IMG/VR virus record: IMGVR_UViG_3300037011_001068
Coordinates: 1 to 64,000 of that record
Length of the DNA: 64,000 bases
Source: a virus
Reading direction: 5' to 3' (one strand)
The notes beneath the pieces are model-generated. The model was not told the DNA's origin. It saw only the letters and a program-made list of their open reading frames with translations, and did no database searches. Below are positions 35,000 to 40,386 of the stretch, piece by piece. Position 1 is the stretch's first letter. Each line of letters starts with the position of its first letter. The translations under genes were made by a program, and so were the position numbers.

Positions 35000-35201
35000 G
35001 TGGCGCGTCCGGGTTCCAATTGTCGGCCTGGCAGAGGCGGACGTGTGGGCGCGGACGCGAGAAGAAGCGGAAGAGACCCTGCGGGGCACTTCCCCTCTTT
35101 CTGTCCTTCGGGGCTCTCTTTCGCTTCTTCGCTTAGGGTATAATTTCGAGGCGGCAACGGTGGAATGTGCAGGGGGATCTCCTGATGCCGATGCAGATTA
35201 A
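34971..35201 (+). CDS. Hypothetical protein, 76 aa
   Basis: A small basic protein, MPNPSSKKVRWRVRVPIVGL, overlapping the previous gene by 29 nt and the polymerase gene by 17 nt. The acidic end DADAD coincides with the polymerase start region. ATG 34971 lacks a strong ribosome site, so translation may depend on coupling. No recognised family. Confidence 0.45.
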   Translation: MPNPSSKKVRWRVRVPIVGLAEADVWARTREEAEETLRGTSPLSVLRGSLSLLRLGYNFEAATVECAGGSPDADAD

Positions 35202-38019
35202 TCCCCATCAATGCACTTCGGGGGCTTTGGACACCGGATCGCCCGATAAGGAAATCGTGTGGCGAATGGATCAGGTTGGGCCGATGGTTCGCTTTCTTCA
35301 GGCGAGCCCCATTTTAATTTTCGATTTTGAGACCTCTGGGCTGGCGTATTTTCGGGATGCTGCGGCTTGTGGCATTGCCTTGGCGGGAGTGGATCAGGAG
35401 GGCCAGAGGCGCTCTTATTATGTGCCTTTCAGGCATGCGACCATTTTTCGCCAGCTCCCTATCGAGGTGGTTTCCCAGGGGGTGGCGCCGCTTCTCGCGG
35501 ATCCGAATAAGCTGAAGATCGCGCACCACATTAAATTCGATGAGCACATGGCGCGGCGGGAAGGATGGCGCGTGGAAGGGAAGCGCTATGACACCATGAT
35601 TGCCGCGCACATTGCGGATGAAAATAAGCCTATAGGATTGAAAAGTCGTGCGATGAGCGATCTGCATCGAAATGATGCAGATTATTGGGAAGGTCGTGTT
35701 GATGCGGAAGTTCGACAGCTCGCAAAAAAAGAAGGTCTTGGGATCGCTGCTTATCGTGAAAAATATGGTTATTCTCAGGTGCCACTTCCGATCGTTGGTC
35801 CATACGCATGCTTGGATGTGGAGCTCACGCATGAGCTCTACAAGCTTTACGAGAAAAATGGGCTTTCTTCTTTTTATGGGCCCATTTTCAGCACTGAATC
35901 CAAGCTCACGGGAATTCTCTGCGAAATGGAGGAGGAGGGCCTTCCCATCGATGTGCCTTACGTCCAGAAATTGAGGGAAAATCTTGTGGCGGTGCAGGCT
36001 CAATTGCTGGATTCTATTTTTCGGATAATTCCTGGGAAGCGTTTTAATTTGGCGTCCGATCAGGAGCTCCGTGATTTTTTGACTTGCGATCTGCGGCTCC
36101 CTCTCCACAAATTAACGGAGAAGGAACAGCTTGCGGTGGATGCGGAGGTCCTCGAGGAATTTTCTGCAGCTCATCCAGCAATTTCATTTATTTTGCAATG
36201 GAGAGAAGCGGAAAAAATTCGGAATACCTACACCACGTCTATCCTCTCTCGGTTGGATCGGAATAATATTCTGCACCCGGATTATCAGCAAGTCGGGACG
36301 GTGACTGGTCGGCTTGCTTGCAAATCCCCGAATTTTCAAAATCAGGTGAGGGATGATGATGATCGAGCAAAGAAGCACAGTGGGAAGGGGCTCAAGGAAG
36401 GGGGTGTGGATCCCTGGTCAGTCCGGAGGGCGTATGTTAATCGTGGGCCCGGTTGGGTGCGGTTATTTTTTGACTATTGTTTACATCCTTCGACGTTAGT
36501 GGAGACGGTTGCGGGAAAGCGGGCTTTGGGAGATCTTAAACCTAGGGATAGGGTTTTCACTTGTCGGAATATGGAGATTTCGAGTGGTGAGGTTTCTCGA
36601 GCAGTTCGGATCGGGAAACTCCCCGCTTACAAGATCAATTTCGATAATGGGGAAAGCGTAATTGCTTCTGTGGATCATGAGTGGCCTGTGGCGATTATAA
36701 AAGGTCAGCAGTTTTATCAGATTAAAAGAAAGACGGAGAATCTTCAGGAGGGCCAGTGGGTATTATCTGCGAAGTTGACTGAAAAGGGATGTATATATGA
36801 TGATAGGGTTAGCTCCATTGAATATGTAGGTTTACAAGAGATGTTTGCGATCACAGTGGAGCCTGATCATAATTATATTCTTGGGTGCGGGGTGGTTACC
36901 TGTAATTCTCAAATCGAATTGAGGGTTTTGGCTCATTATTCTCAGGATCCCACTTTGGTTGAGGCGTATCTTACCGGGGAAGATATTCATTCCAGGACTT
37001 CGATGGAGGTTTTTGGGAATAAGTCTTCTCGCCAGCTCGCGAAGATTCTTAATTTCGGCCTTTGTATTGCTGGTGGGCAGAAGGTCTTGACGCGCCAAGA
37101 TGGCCTTGTGCCGATTGAGCAAGTGCAGGATAGGCATTTTCTCTGGGATGGCGTTGATTGGGTTAGACATGCTGGCCTAGTATGCCGGGGGGAAAAGGGT
37201 GTCGTGACGTATGAGGATCTCACTGCGACGCCAGAGCATTTGGTTTTTTTGAAAGGTGGCCGATCTATTCCGATCGGATGCCTTGCATCCTCTATTAGTT
37301 CTGGGCGTCTTGCTCTTGGCGCGGTTGGAGAGGATCCCGTTAAATATTTTGCAGCTTATGGGCCACACTGGTATGCGATAGAGAATTCAGGTTGTGAGAG
37401 CTGCATGAGTTGTTCGCCATGCTTGAAGACAGCAGTGGTATATGATCTTCTGGATGCTGGCCCGCGAAATAGATTTACGGTTGAGGGGAAAATTGTGTCT
37501 AACTCCTATTGTATGTCGGCGATTGGTTACAGCCGCAACGCCAAGATCCCTCAAGAAGAGGCTGAAAAGCACATGGCTCAGTTTTTTGCTCGGTATAGCG
37601 GTATTAAACCCTTTCGCGAGAAACTATGGGCGGAAGTGCAGAGTCAGCGGGGTTATTTCCAGAATATTTTTGGGCGACCCCGAAGAGTGATCGGAATTCT
37701 TTCTCCGGGACGGCAGGCTGTATCGAGGGCTCGCCGGCAGATTATCTCGACCTTGATTCAAGGTACTGCAGCCGAGCTCACGAAAGAGAGCCTTTGCCGG
37801 ATTCATGATTTTTTGCGAGCAGAGAATATTCCCGCGAAGATTGTTGCGACCGTACATGATGAGATTCAGATTGATTGCCCGGTTGGGTCCTTGTCCAGAG
37901 TCGCGCGTGAGACGAAACGATTGATGGAGGATTTTTCACAGTTTGCTCCGATTCCTATCCTCGTGGATGGGCAATATTCCACGCAGAGCTGGAGCGATAA
38001 GCAATCGCTTCCACTGTGA
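35185..38019 (+). CDS. polA: Family A DNA polymerase with two inteins, 944 aa
   Basis: The phage replicative polymerase. The 3'-5' exonuclease domain is at the N-terminus (FDFETSGLAYF near residue 50, IAHHIKFDEHM, YACLDVELTHELY). Palm motif A FDY...SQIELRVLAHYS is split by intein 1 (residues 432-574); fingers motif B RQLAKILNFGL...SYCMSAIGYS is split by intein 2 (627-773), and motif C is VHDE (890-893). The mature extein would be 654 aa, near phage Pol I-type size. Removal of both inteins is needed to rebuild the active site. The start ATG 35185 has aggggga upstream; GTG 35167 is a poorer choice. Confidence 0.93.
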   Translation: MPMQINPHQCTSGALDTGSPDKEIVWRMDQVGPMVRFLQASPILIFDFETSGLAYFRDAAACGIALAGVDQEGQRRSYYVPFRHATIFRQLPIEVVSQGVAPLLADPNKLKIAHHIKFDEHMARREGWRVEGKRYDTMIAAHIADENKPIGLKSRAMSDLHRNDADYWEGRVDAEVRQLAKKEGLGIAAYREKYGYSQVPLPIVGPYACLDVELTHELYKLYEKNGLSSFYGPIFSTESKLTGILCEMEEEGLPIDVPYVQKLRENLVAVQAQLLDSIFRIIPGKRFNLASDQELRDFLTCDLRLPLHKLTEKEQLAVDAEVLEEFSAAHPAISFILQWREAEKIRNTYTTSILSRLDRNNILHPDYQQVGTVTGRLACKSPNFQNQVRDDDDRAKKHSGKGLKEGGVDPWSVRRAYVNRGPGWVRLFFDYCLHPSTLVETVAGKRALGDLKPRDRVFTCRNMEISSGEVSRAVRIGKLPAYKINFDNGESVIASVDHEWPVAIIKGQQFYQIKRKTENLQEGQWVLSAKLTEKGCIYDDRVSSIEYVGLQEMFAITVEPDHNYILGCGVVTCNSQIELRVLAHYSQDPTLVEAYLTGEDIHSRTSMEVFGNKSSRQLAKILNFGLCIAGGQKVLTRQDGLVPIEQVQDRHFLWDGVDWVRHAGLVCRGEKGVVTYEDLTATPEHLVFLKGGRSIPIGCLASSISSGRLALGAVGEDPVKYFAAYGPHWYAIENSGCESCMSCSPCLKTAVVYDLLDAGPRNRFTVEGKIVSNSYCMSAIGYSRNAKIPQEEAEKHMAQFFARYSGIKPFREKLWAEVQSQRGYFQNIFGRPRRVIGILSPGRQAVSRARRQIISTLIQGTAAELTKESLCRIHDFLRAENIPAKIVATVHDEIQIDCPVGSLSRVARETKRLMEDFSQFAPIPILVDGQYSTQSWSDKQSLPL
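36478..36906 (+). other. Mini-intein 1 in polymerase motif A, 143 aa
   Basis: Begins with Cys (CLHPSTLVETVAG) directly after FDY and ends ...YILGCGVVTCN before the +1 Ser of SQIELR. Block B is IASVDHEWPV with its His; block F resembles VEPDHNYIL. Only 143 residues, so there is no homing endonuclease. The penultimate residue is Cys in place of the usual His. Insertion lies two residues after the catalytic Asp of motif A, so unspliced protein should be inactive. Confidence 0.9.
37063..37503 (+). other. Mini-intein 2 in polymerase motif B, 147 aa
   Basis: Begins CIAGGQKVLTRQDGLVPIEQ after NFGL and ends VYDLLDAGPRNRFTVEGKI-VSN before the +1 Ser. Block B is TATPEHLVFL. The end pattern VYDLxxAGPxxRFTVxG is typical of a phage intein group. 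No endonuclease domain. The penultimate residue is Ser rather than His. A CxxCxxC cluster (CESCMSCSPC) is unusual for such a short intein. The two inteins differ in sequence and so were likely acquired separately. Confidence 0.9.
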
Positions 38020-38592: not shown

Positions 38593-40386
38593 ATGTATCC
38601 AGCAAATCCATGGCCACAGCAGGGCCAGCAACCGCAGCAGCCACAGCAATTTCAGCAACCGCAGCAATTTCAGCAACCGCAACAATTTCAGCAACCGCAA
38701 CAATTTCAGCAACCACAGCAGCCACAGCAGCCACAAGCAATTCAGGGTTCAGGGCAATTTGGTTCTCCGGTAGGCCCGATGGCGCCGGCAGGAATTCCCG
38801 ATTTTTTCGCTCCGAATGAGGAGCAGATTCAGGAGGAGTTTCGGCGGGCATCGGCAGAAGATCGGTTTAAAGGTCCACCCTTCGTGAAATTTTTGGGCCC
38901 GCAGGGACAGGCTAGATGGGATAAATCGGTCCCAGTGGGTCATAAAGACGATATTTTTGTGGCTTTTGCGCCTTGTTGGGGTCCTGGAAAGCCCTTGTTC
39001 AAAGTATCTCGGAGTCATTATTGGAAAAGCTTCCAGCATCCCAGAGGAAAATCTATCGGTTGCGCTGGTAAGGAGTGTTTAATTTGTAAAGCGAGGGAAT
39101 TGGCTCTCAATAGCCCGGATAATGCTGTGAAGGAGCGGGCAAAAGATATCGGTAGATCGCGTGTGCAAAATCTCTACAATGTATTTCTCCTTAAGAGTCC
39201 TCAATTGCATCCAGTAGATCCTATCACAGGGCTCATGCGACCGTTCATTCTTGGCGCTGGCAGGAATTTGCACGCTGAAATTTTTAATCTAATCGACGGT
39301 CGGGGGGGTGCAATGGCTCTCATAAATCCCAGCCATCTCCGTCCTGTGCGGATCACAAAAATTAAGAATGGTGAAGACGAGAAGGATGTTGAATATAAGT
39401 TAATTGATTACGATCCTATTGTCCTTCCACGAGAATTTTGGGGAGCACTATCGAATCTTTGGGATTTAGATGCCTTAGAGAAGCTGGTGAGTCCGGAAGA
39501 TCAAATTAAGGTGATCCAGGAGATGCAATTTCCACTTCCTCCCGGGGTTTTTCCAGGCATGTCGGCTCCTCAAGCTCCTCAAGCTCCTTCTGGATGGGCT
39601 CCTCAAGCTCCTCAAGCTCCTCAAGCTCCTTCTGGATGGGCTCCTCAAGCTCCTCAAGCTCCTTCTGGATGGGTTCCTCAAGCTCCTCAAGCTCCTCAAG
39701 CTCCTTCTGGATGGGCTCCTCAAGCTCCTCAAGCTCCTTCTGGATGGGTTCCTCAAGCTCCTCAAGCTCCTCAAGCTCCTCAAGCTCCTTCTGGATGGGC
39801 TCCTCAAGCTCCTCAAGCTCCTCAAGCTCCTTCTGGATGGGCTCCCTCCCAAACTCCTTCCCAAACTCCTTCTCAGGCTCCTTCTGGATGGTCCCCTCAA
39901 GCCCCTTCTGGATGGTCCCCTCAAGCTCCTCAAGCTCCTTCTGGATGGGCTCCTCAAGCTCCTCAAGCTCCTCAAGCTCCCTCTGGATGGGGGGCTCCTG
40001 TTCCTCCTCCAATGACTCCTCCCCCGGTGTCCTCTGGAGGAGGGGCTCCTGGGAGTTATTCTCCCCAGCCCTCGCAGGCAGGGGGGCCTGTTCCGCCGCC
40101 TGCCTACCCTATGCAGTCTCCTGGGGGTTTCGGGGATCCTTTTGCTAGTCAGCAGGCGGCTCTTCCGGGGCAAGCGATTCCGTGGCCTTTTCCTGCGGGT
40201 TTTTCTTTGCCGGACGGCAGAGAGCGTTGTTATAGTCGTTTTCATGCCGAGCATACTTTCTGCCGTCAATGCCCCGGGTGGATTCAGGCGCAATGCCAAT
40301 TGTTGGCTCGGTCTATGCTTGGTTCCGGAGGGGCGCCAAAGCCGACCTTAGAGGCGTTGCAGGCGCAGCTATCCGGCAAGGTATAA
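38593..40386 (+). CDS. Single-stranded DNA-binding protein (gp32-like) with Gln/Pro and APQAPSGW repeats, 597 aa
   Basis: The core (about residues 70-320) resembles gp32: a WKSFQHPRGKSIGCAGKECL segment gives a Cys cluster, and later beta strands. The N-terminal 50 residues are PQQFQQ repeats (disordered). After residue 320 there is a long low-complexity region of APQAPSGW units (39559-39990), and a C-terminal Cys-His set (ERCYSRFHAEHTFCRQCPG...QCQ). Wild expansions of this kind are rare in SSBs. It precedes UvsX. A long antisense ORF here is only a mirror of the repeats. Confidence 0.72.
   Translation: MYPANPWPQQGQQPQQPQQFQQPQQFQQPQQFQQPQQFQQPQQPQQPQAIQGSGQFGSPVGPMAPAGIPDFFAPNEEQIQEEFRRASAEDRFKGPPFVKFLGPQGQARWDKSVPVGHKDDIFVAFAPCWGPGKPLFKVSRSHYWKSFQHPRGKSIGCAGKECLICKARELALNSPDNAVKERAKDIGRSRVQNLYNVFLLKSPQLHPVDPITGLMRPFILGAGRNLHAEIFNLIDGRGGAMALINPSHLRPVRITKIKNGEDEKDVEYKLIDYDPIVLPREFWGALSNLWDLDALEKLVSPEDQIKVIQEMQFPLPPGVFPGMSAPQAPQAPSGWAPQAPQAPQAPSGWAPQAPQAPSGWVPQAPQAPQAPSGWAPQAPQAPSGWVPQAPQAPQAPQAPSGWAPQAPQAPQAPSGWAPSQTPSQTPSQAPSGWSPQAPSGWSPQAPQAPSGWAPQAPQAPQAPSGWGAPVPPPMTPPPVSSGGGAPGSYSPQPSQAGGPVPPPAYPMQSPGGFGDPFASQQAALPGQAIPWPFPAGFSLPDGRERCYSRFHAEHTFCRQCPGWIQAQCQLLARSMLGSGGAPKPTLEALQAQLSGKV
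39559..39990 (+). repeat. Tandem repeat encoding APQAPQAPSGW units
   Basis: About 430 bp of near-identical units, cctcaagctcct and ccttctggatgg(gct), repeated in runs of two to four PQA blocks each followed by PSGW. The codons are identical between copies, pointing to recent expansion by slippage or unequal crossing-over. It lies inside the SSB gene and makes the length of that protein likely to vary among relatives. Confidence 0.9.

Follow-up and report, generated by a model that had tools for sequence, protein, structure and literature searches.

The window analysed here comprises 64,000 nucleotides, positions 1-64000 of a phage contig of 105,756 base pairs (bp), IMG/VR record IMGVR_UViG_3300037011_001068. 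On its plus strand lies polA, a single open frame whose product is recognizable by sequence as a family-A DNA polymerase with a 3'-5' exonuclease domain. The frame is interrupted at polymerase motifs A and B by two inserts, which are predicted from sequence and structural modeling to be mini-inteins of the class 1 type with a Hint fold. It is highly likely that both derive by deletion from mobile inteins and that they are spliced out to rebuild the two motifs. The parts of the gene are listed below, with a slash marking each junction between intein and extein.

35167-38019, plus strand: polA, phage family-A DNA polymerase with a 3'-5' exonuclease domain, a single 950-codon open frame.
36478-36906, plus strand: intein 1, 143 amino acids (CLHPST...VVTCN/SQIELR), at motif A (DY/SQIELR).
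36907-37062, plus strand: middle extein, from motif A to motif B, 52 codons.
37063-37503, plus strand: intein 2, 147 amino acids (CIAGGQ...KIVSN/SYCMSA), at motif B (K-x-x-NFGL/SYC).
37504-38016, plus strand: C-terminal extein with motif C (VHDE).

The polA product matches PF00476 (DNA_pol_A; expect value, E, 2e-73) and PF01612 (E 5e-9) and contains motifs A, B and C. The DNA_pol_A match is split in three, and the gaps between the pieces are the two inserts. Once both are removed, the product measures 660 amino acids from a GTG at 35167 or 654 from an ATG at 35185, the latter agreeing with the 654-residue spliced product proposed in a preliminary description of this DNA made from its letters alone. 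That description had also called for comparison with intein-free relatives, against which the insert-free sequence aligns cleanly and without gaps through both motifs. Together with relatives carrying inserts at the same sites and models of the Hint fold, the gaps in the Pfam match uphold its reading of the inserts of 143 and 147 amino acids as inteins. No other DNA_pol_A gene was found in the 105,756-bp record.

Both inserts display class 1 features: an N-terminal Cys, an (S/T)xxH motif, a terminal Asn, an in-frame position within a conserved motif, and a +1 Ser, which had been correctly noted before (SQIELR and SYC follow the junctions). The penultimate His, which is typical but not obligatory in class 1, is replaced in both. 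Intein 1 has Cys1, SVDH in block B (Ser for Thr, as also in its relatives L103 and L181), a block-F His (DHN), a penultimate Cys, Asn (N143) and the +1 Ser. It is matched by PF14890 (E 9e-8, below the curated cut-off) and by the Ssp DnaB mini-intein, and the top Foldseek matches of its AlphaFold2 model, which has a predicted local distance difference test (pLDDT) score of 82, are DnaB inteins (E 2e-8). Intein 2 has Cys1, TPEH in block B, the block-F Asp, an Asn replacing the block-F His, a penultimate Ser, Asn and the +1 Ser. No Pfam or NCBIfam family matched it; inserts of annotated phage polymerases are 34-45% identical to it, and its AlphaFold2 model (pLDDT 90) retrieves, among the top PDB matches listed, only inteins and other Hint-fold proteins.

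Two other assignments were rejected. Class 3 inteins, which lack an N-terminal nucleophile and have a Cys at position 4 of block F (WCT), do not fit, as both inserts have Cys1, and position 4 is Ala in the first insert and Asp in the second. A homing intein with an intact endonuclease does not fit either: no HNH_3 domain occurs in the 105,756-bp record, and an overprinted HNH is present only as a fossil with four stops. The earlier statement that neither intein has a homing domain is thus sound.

Splicing of both inteins by the class 1 route is most likely, because the catalytic residues are conserved, the fold is predicted, the frame is intact and the domains are conserved as protein. In close pairs, the proportion of nonsynonymous differences (pN) in the splicing domains is 0.17-0.23 against a synonymous proportion (pS) of 0.76-0.85, which is saturated, so that dN/dS is not given as a number. 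An acyl shift at Cys1 would be followed by transfer to the +1 Ser and by Asn cyclisation, restoring motifs A and B; cyclisation may be helped by the block-F His in intein 1 and by some other residue in intein 2. Because both inserts break catalytic motifs, excision is very probably needed for polymerase function. The splicing domains would have been kept because, once lodged in a catalytic motif, an intein must either remain functional or be removed precisely.

The absence of the assisting residues raises the alternative that intein 2 is in decay and has little or no splicing activity left, leaving the phage with little active polymerase or dependent on that of its host. The Asn at block F and the Ser at the penultimate position would agree with such decay, as would the fact that its HNH frame is already dead. 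However, Cys1, the block B TxxH, the block-F Asp, the terminal Asn and the +1 Ser are all intact, the reading frame is uninterrupted, conservation at the protein level is strong, and the record holds no second DNA_pol_A gene. Across the intein-2 family (76 non-redundant members including the window), the penultimate position is occupied by His in 54 members, by Ser in 21 and by Gly in one, and both the block-F His and the penultimate His are absent in 5 of the 76, so that four other members (L027, L034, L037, L091) share the condition of the window. Decay of intein 2 is accordingly unlikely. The same counts bear on the penultimate Cys and Ser that the preliminary description had singled out: the replacements are present, and they are family traits rather than a special mark, Cys also occurring in L103, Gln in L181 and Ser in 21 of 76 members of the intein-2 family.

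The origin of intein 1 is suggested by L103, a 279-amino-acid intein at the same site of a related polymerase. The two are 56% identical in aligned columns and share the end ...LGCGVVTCN/SQIELR, and L103 carries an in-frame HNH_3 domain (E 1e-11). A second relative, L181, interrupts the same motif of another polymerase, with an in-frame HNH-like region and a penultimate Gln. When intein 1 is aligned with L103, a gap stands in place of the HNH region, and a few residues aligned to the C-terminal part of that region remain. Intein 1 would have lost an in-frame HNH domain through internal deletion.

Intein 2 relates to inteins of a different build. Its splicing domain is homologous to those of same-site members with an HNH in the +1 frame (L018, L104, L119). 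In the long relatives, the intein frame between block B and block F resembles non-conserved basic filler, and the same DNA encodes a protein of 190-270 amino acids in another forward frame. PHROGs assigns these overprinted open reading frames (ORFs) to HNH endonuclease (phrog_374, E 2e-15 to 1e-59). The viral set comprises 80 loci, of which 61 are long members (one cut by a contig end) and 19 are mini-inteins. The HNH lies in the +1 frame in all 61 long viral members and in 36 of 36 long members from bacterial genomes, two sets that are not fully independent, some bacterial genomes being prophage hosts of viral loci. It lies in the +2 frame in Pseudomonas phage MR14 (L009:3057-3815) and Vibrio phage 97.13 (L010:3054-3803), which suggests that overprinting arose, or shifted frame, more than once. 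Several mini members (L022, L025, L036, L072) keep truncated HNH pieces.

Several codon-level patterns point to selection on both frames. Across the middle region of 69 long members (15,964 codons), 67 of which carry the HNH in +1, there are no stops in the intein frame, 79 in the +1 frame and 906 in the +2 frame. Among 20 non-redundant inteins of 309 amino acids, identity over the overlap is 66% in the +1 frame and 34% in both the intein frame and the remaining frame. Overlap differences at the first, second and third intein codon positions number 10694, 5429 and 4082, with the peak at what is the third position of +1 codons; in the N-terminal splicing part of the same inteins they number 2861, 1974 and 6477, with the peak at the intein's own third position. 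When the HNH of 49 inteins was resampled with synonymous codons, about 449 intein-frame stops were expected, and none is observed. The +1-frame codon pattern and the missing stops show, on sequence evidence, that selection maintains the overprinted HNH as a gene and keeps the intein frame open. The intein frame over the overlap would be kept stop-free only to let ribosomes through to the C-terminal splicing block.

The family is not confined to one insertion site or one gene. Its insertion sites fall at several offsets in the motif-B helix and nearly always precede Cys or Ser. The one-residue offset between the window site and the sites in Ruminococcus and Streptococcus phages is real, and IMG/VR relatives at the exact window site exist. 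Three members (L083, L095, L240) lie in genes that are not polymerase-like, the C-extein of L095 being helicase-like, and the element is therefore not tied to polA. Beyond L005, L008, L011, L013, L015 and L018, about 90 loci also hide a +1-frame HNH ORF in polymerase inteins. Named phages with an unannotated +1 HNH include Gardnerella vB_Gva_AB1, Streptococcus Javan113, Caulobacter GB2A, APSE-7 and Shewanella SFCi1. At L035:4493-4693, an HNH of the same family lies in a different frame outside a mini-intein, about 600 bp downstream, and is possibly free-standing.

Intein 2 of the window retains traces of such an overprinted gene. The putative marks of deletion and decay in the two inteins are as follows.

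36765-36766, plus strand: candidate deletion scar of intein 1, between residues 96 and 97 (...GQWVL/SAKLTEKGC..., the slash marking the scar), where L103 and L181 have an in-frame HNH region.
37250-37447, plus strand: decayed +1-frame HNH fossil inside intein 2, 36% identical over 65 residues to residues 13-77 of the L018 HNH.
37393-37422, plus strand: Cys cluster CESCMSCSPC, within the intein-2 linker, aligning with RCGSCVWC of L018.
37423-37437, plus strand: candidate endpoint of the deletion in which the remainder of the HNH gene was lost, immediately ahead of block F (VYDLLDAG), as placed by the alignment of L018, L104 and L119.

The L018 HNH has a sole match in the 105,756-bp record, at 37250-37447 in the +1 frame, with three TGA codons and one TAG. 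In a shuffle test of intein 2 against L018 beyond the best-conserved start, the similarity gives p 0.0005 when read in +1 and p 0.037 when read in the intein frame. At the nucleotide level, the alignment of the intein-2 linker with L018 is not significant (p 0.43 for the whole linker, 0.15 for the Cys segment), and the homology rests on translated comparisons. Within the match, the intein-frame CESCMSC faces RCGSCVWC of L018, which overlaps the HNH zinc-finger half CGVCGKQRW encoded in the +1 frame. The Cys cluster of intein 2 is most simply read as the intein-frame shadow of a decayed HNH zinc finger, since it faces zinc-finger DNA, is nearly unique in the family and lies in a low-confidence loop. 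An internal deletion in intein 2 would have removed the HNH gene overprinted in the other frame of its middle.

A second alternative is that both mini-inteins are ancestral and never held an endonuclease, the long forms having acquired theirs later. Mini-inteins are indeed common in the family (19 of the 80 viral loci), but intein 2 matches the HNH in the HNH frame, intein 1 keeps residues aligned to the C-terminal part of the L103 HNH region, and other minis of the family carry the truncated pieces described above. An ancestral mini state is quite unlikely. Derivation by deletion from mobile inteins, which would have homed into both sites in a clade of roughly 100-110 kilobase (kb) phages, would better explain these remnants.

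The polymerase clade was found by an alignment-based scan of relatives, several of which lie on 97-110 kb contigs; single-protein IMG/VR scans with the whole polymerase and with the neighbouring UvsX-like protein gave no matches, and alignments were required. Nine clade polymerases (L096, L097, L098, L099, L100, L101, L105, L107, L108) have neither intein, and none is seen in L102, a partial sequence that extends past motif B. L103 has the motif-A intein only, and L104, L119 and L018 (the contig of which is also L106) have the motif-B intein only, with a +1 Ser. The window alone within its clade has both together, each without an endonuclease. Carriers of the motif-B intein are scattered among intein-free relatives on the polymerase tree, where L103 (A only) pairs with L119 (B only) as its sister at a support of 1.0, whereas the motif-B inteins form one group (0.865) in their tree, with the window beside L018 (0.75). 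By sequence, this contrast between scattered carriers and grouped inteins fits mobile or recently mobile elements. Polymerases with two inteins are not unique to the window. L021 and L196, other family-A polymerases, combine a motif-B mini-intein with a long one near the C-terminus, and that of L022 combines a motif-B mini-intein with a different long one at GRW/SGRH.

This distribution also bears on the proposal in the preliminary description that splicing is a conditional switch, in which the Cys cluster and the unusual penultimate residues make excision dependent on redox state or metal and so gate phage replication. The cluster is present, in the corrected form CESCMSCSPC (CxxCxxCxxC rather than CxxCxxC), and the block-F His, which had not been remarked on, is absent from intein 2 as well. 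A switch of this kind has precedent in the mycobacterial DnaB intein, which is blocked by zinc and oxidation (PMC7360933, PMC6195587), and CxxCxxC is common to the window and L018. However, L018 is the only one of the 75 other non-redundant members to have it, and the loop that carries it (pLDDT 52-62) lies outside the conserved splicing blocks. Read in the HNH frame, the Cys segment resembles L018 more closely than it does when read in the intein frame, so that the zinc-finger shadow explains the cluster better. The known sensing acts through catalytic cysteines (PMC7360933), which every Cys1 intein possesses. Gating of replication fares no better, as most clade polymerases have neither intein, and mobile elements fit that pattern better than a conserved switch. 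Redox- or metal-dependent gating is thus very improbable. Finally, the idea that the out-of-frame HNH of the relatives is a frameshift-error artefact of an HNH that is truly in frame can be dismissed almost entirely: the contigs are mostly metagenomic, but the +1 arrangement recurs across IMG/VR, isolate phages and genomes of bacterial isolates, at about 100 loci altogether, splicing blocks flank the HNH in one open stop-free frame while the HNH lies wholly in +1, and an in-frame HNH is detected where present (L103, L181).

Several points weigh against the reading of both inserts as splicing-competent relics of mobile inteins. Splicing itself is something we infer from sequence and models, and so, from sequence, are the translation of the overprinted HNH, homing through its cleavage and the deletion history of both inteins. 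Intein 2 has neither of the His residues that usually assist Asn cyclisation, a state shared with the four other members named above. The fossil match is short and, at E 0.0017, weak by itself. Identity to the clade relatives over the aligned polymerase reaches only 46-55%, and loss of the endonuclease is read from shared remnants rather than from a very recent ancestor. The start codon of the overprinted HNH is not uniformly conserved: within the 309-amino-acid group, many members have an ATG at codon 85 but not all do, and neither a conserved start codon nor a Shine-Dalgarno site was established for the family. Set against the codon patterns and the breadth of the family, these points leave it likely, with considerable confidence, that intein 2 belongs to a widespread family of phage polymerase inteins whose homing endonuclease is overprinted as a separate gene, nearly always in +1, and that the window copy is a relic in which the dead endonuclease is still readable and has left a misleading Cys cluster.

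The polA gene lies within a replication block (27385-48712 of the window) that includes two helicases, a primase, PolA, the UvsX-like protein, an SbcC/SbcD-like pair and a processivity factor. Upstream of this block, genes for the tail sheath and baseplate point to a contractile-tailed phage. Adjoining the UvsX-like gene on its upstream side, positions 38593-40386 encode a 597-amino-acid protein with PQQ/QFQQ repeats and many PQAPQAPSGW repeats, which is possibly a single-stranded DNA-binding protein. The same phage has a third intein outside the window, at 64413-65288 of the record (L179:1914-2789). It spans 292 amino acids, interrupts the large terminase subunit after the P-loop (RDHGK/C...VNHN/TYFF) and carries an in-frame LAGLIDADG_3 domain.

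If the overprinted endonuclease is real, one stretch of DNA would code for both a self-excising protein and an enzyme that cuts DNA, and splicing would be uncoupled from homing at the level of translation. Such an endonuclease would be invisible to normal annotation, in which the relatives are labelled only 'DNA polymerase' or 'hypothetical protein'. The family would also be a clear example from nature of overlapping genes under unequal constraint, with selection acting on the amino acids of one frame and, in the other, only on freedom from stops. It further advises caution about metal sites in intein linkers, since an out-of-frame zinc finger can leave a Cys cluster as its shadow. No published report of an intein with an overprinted endonuclease was found in a search that left subscription journals mostly outside, and priority is therefore uncertain.

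Compared with known systems, the chemistry of the window inteins is ordinary, and the overprinted endonuclease is the new point. Class 1 mini-inteins such as Npu DnaE, the Ssp DnaB mini-intein and the Mtu RecA splicing domain likewise have the Hint fold, Cys1, (T/S)xxH, a terminal Asn, a +1 nucleophile and a length of about 140 amino acids. The window inteins differ in interrupting motifs A and B of a family-A polymerase from a phage, and intein 2 differs further in lacking both assisting His residues and in having an out-of-frame HNH fossil as its linker. DnaE inteins, too, are described as splicing without a penultimate His (reference in PMC4031507). In mycobacteriophage inteins, the penultimate His is poorly conserved and the block-F His can take its role (Kelley et al. 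2016, PMC5050341); one of them splices better with its native non-His residue than with His (PMC5050341). These mycobacteriophage inteins resemble those of the window in having non-His penultimate residues in phage DNA-metabolism proteins, but they occupy other host genes, their replacements are Gly, Lys and Ser rather than Cys and Ser, and they are described as encoding functional homing endonucleases (PMC5050341).

Standard homing inteins (L103, L181 and the CDC21 inteins, PMC6801210) similarly place the endonuclease between blocks B and F and show a parasitic, patchy distribution. In these, the endonuclease is an in-frame domain, whereas in the intein-2 family it is a separate overprinted gene. 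The closest parallel to such overprinting is the ShiLan domain, an out-of-frame HNH in a phage methylase that is stated not to be an intein (Arsenault et al. 2025, PMC11855218). In both, a phage gene contains a stop-free insert that conceals an HNH gene in a different frame, and the distribution is homing-like. ShiLan and the Pacc40 insert are reported to lack a splicing domain (PMC11855218). Intein 2 was rejected as a ShiLan-type element because it has a Hint splicing domain. The intein-2 family possesses blocks A, B, F and G together with the predicted Hint fold, so that, unlike ShiLan, the insert could remove itself.

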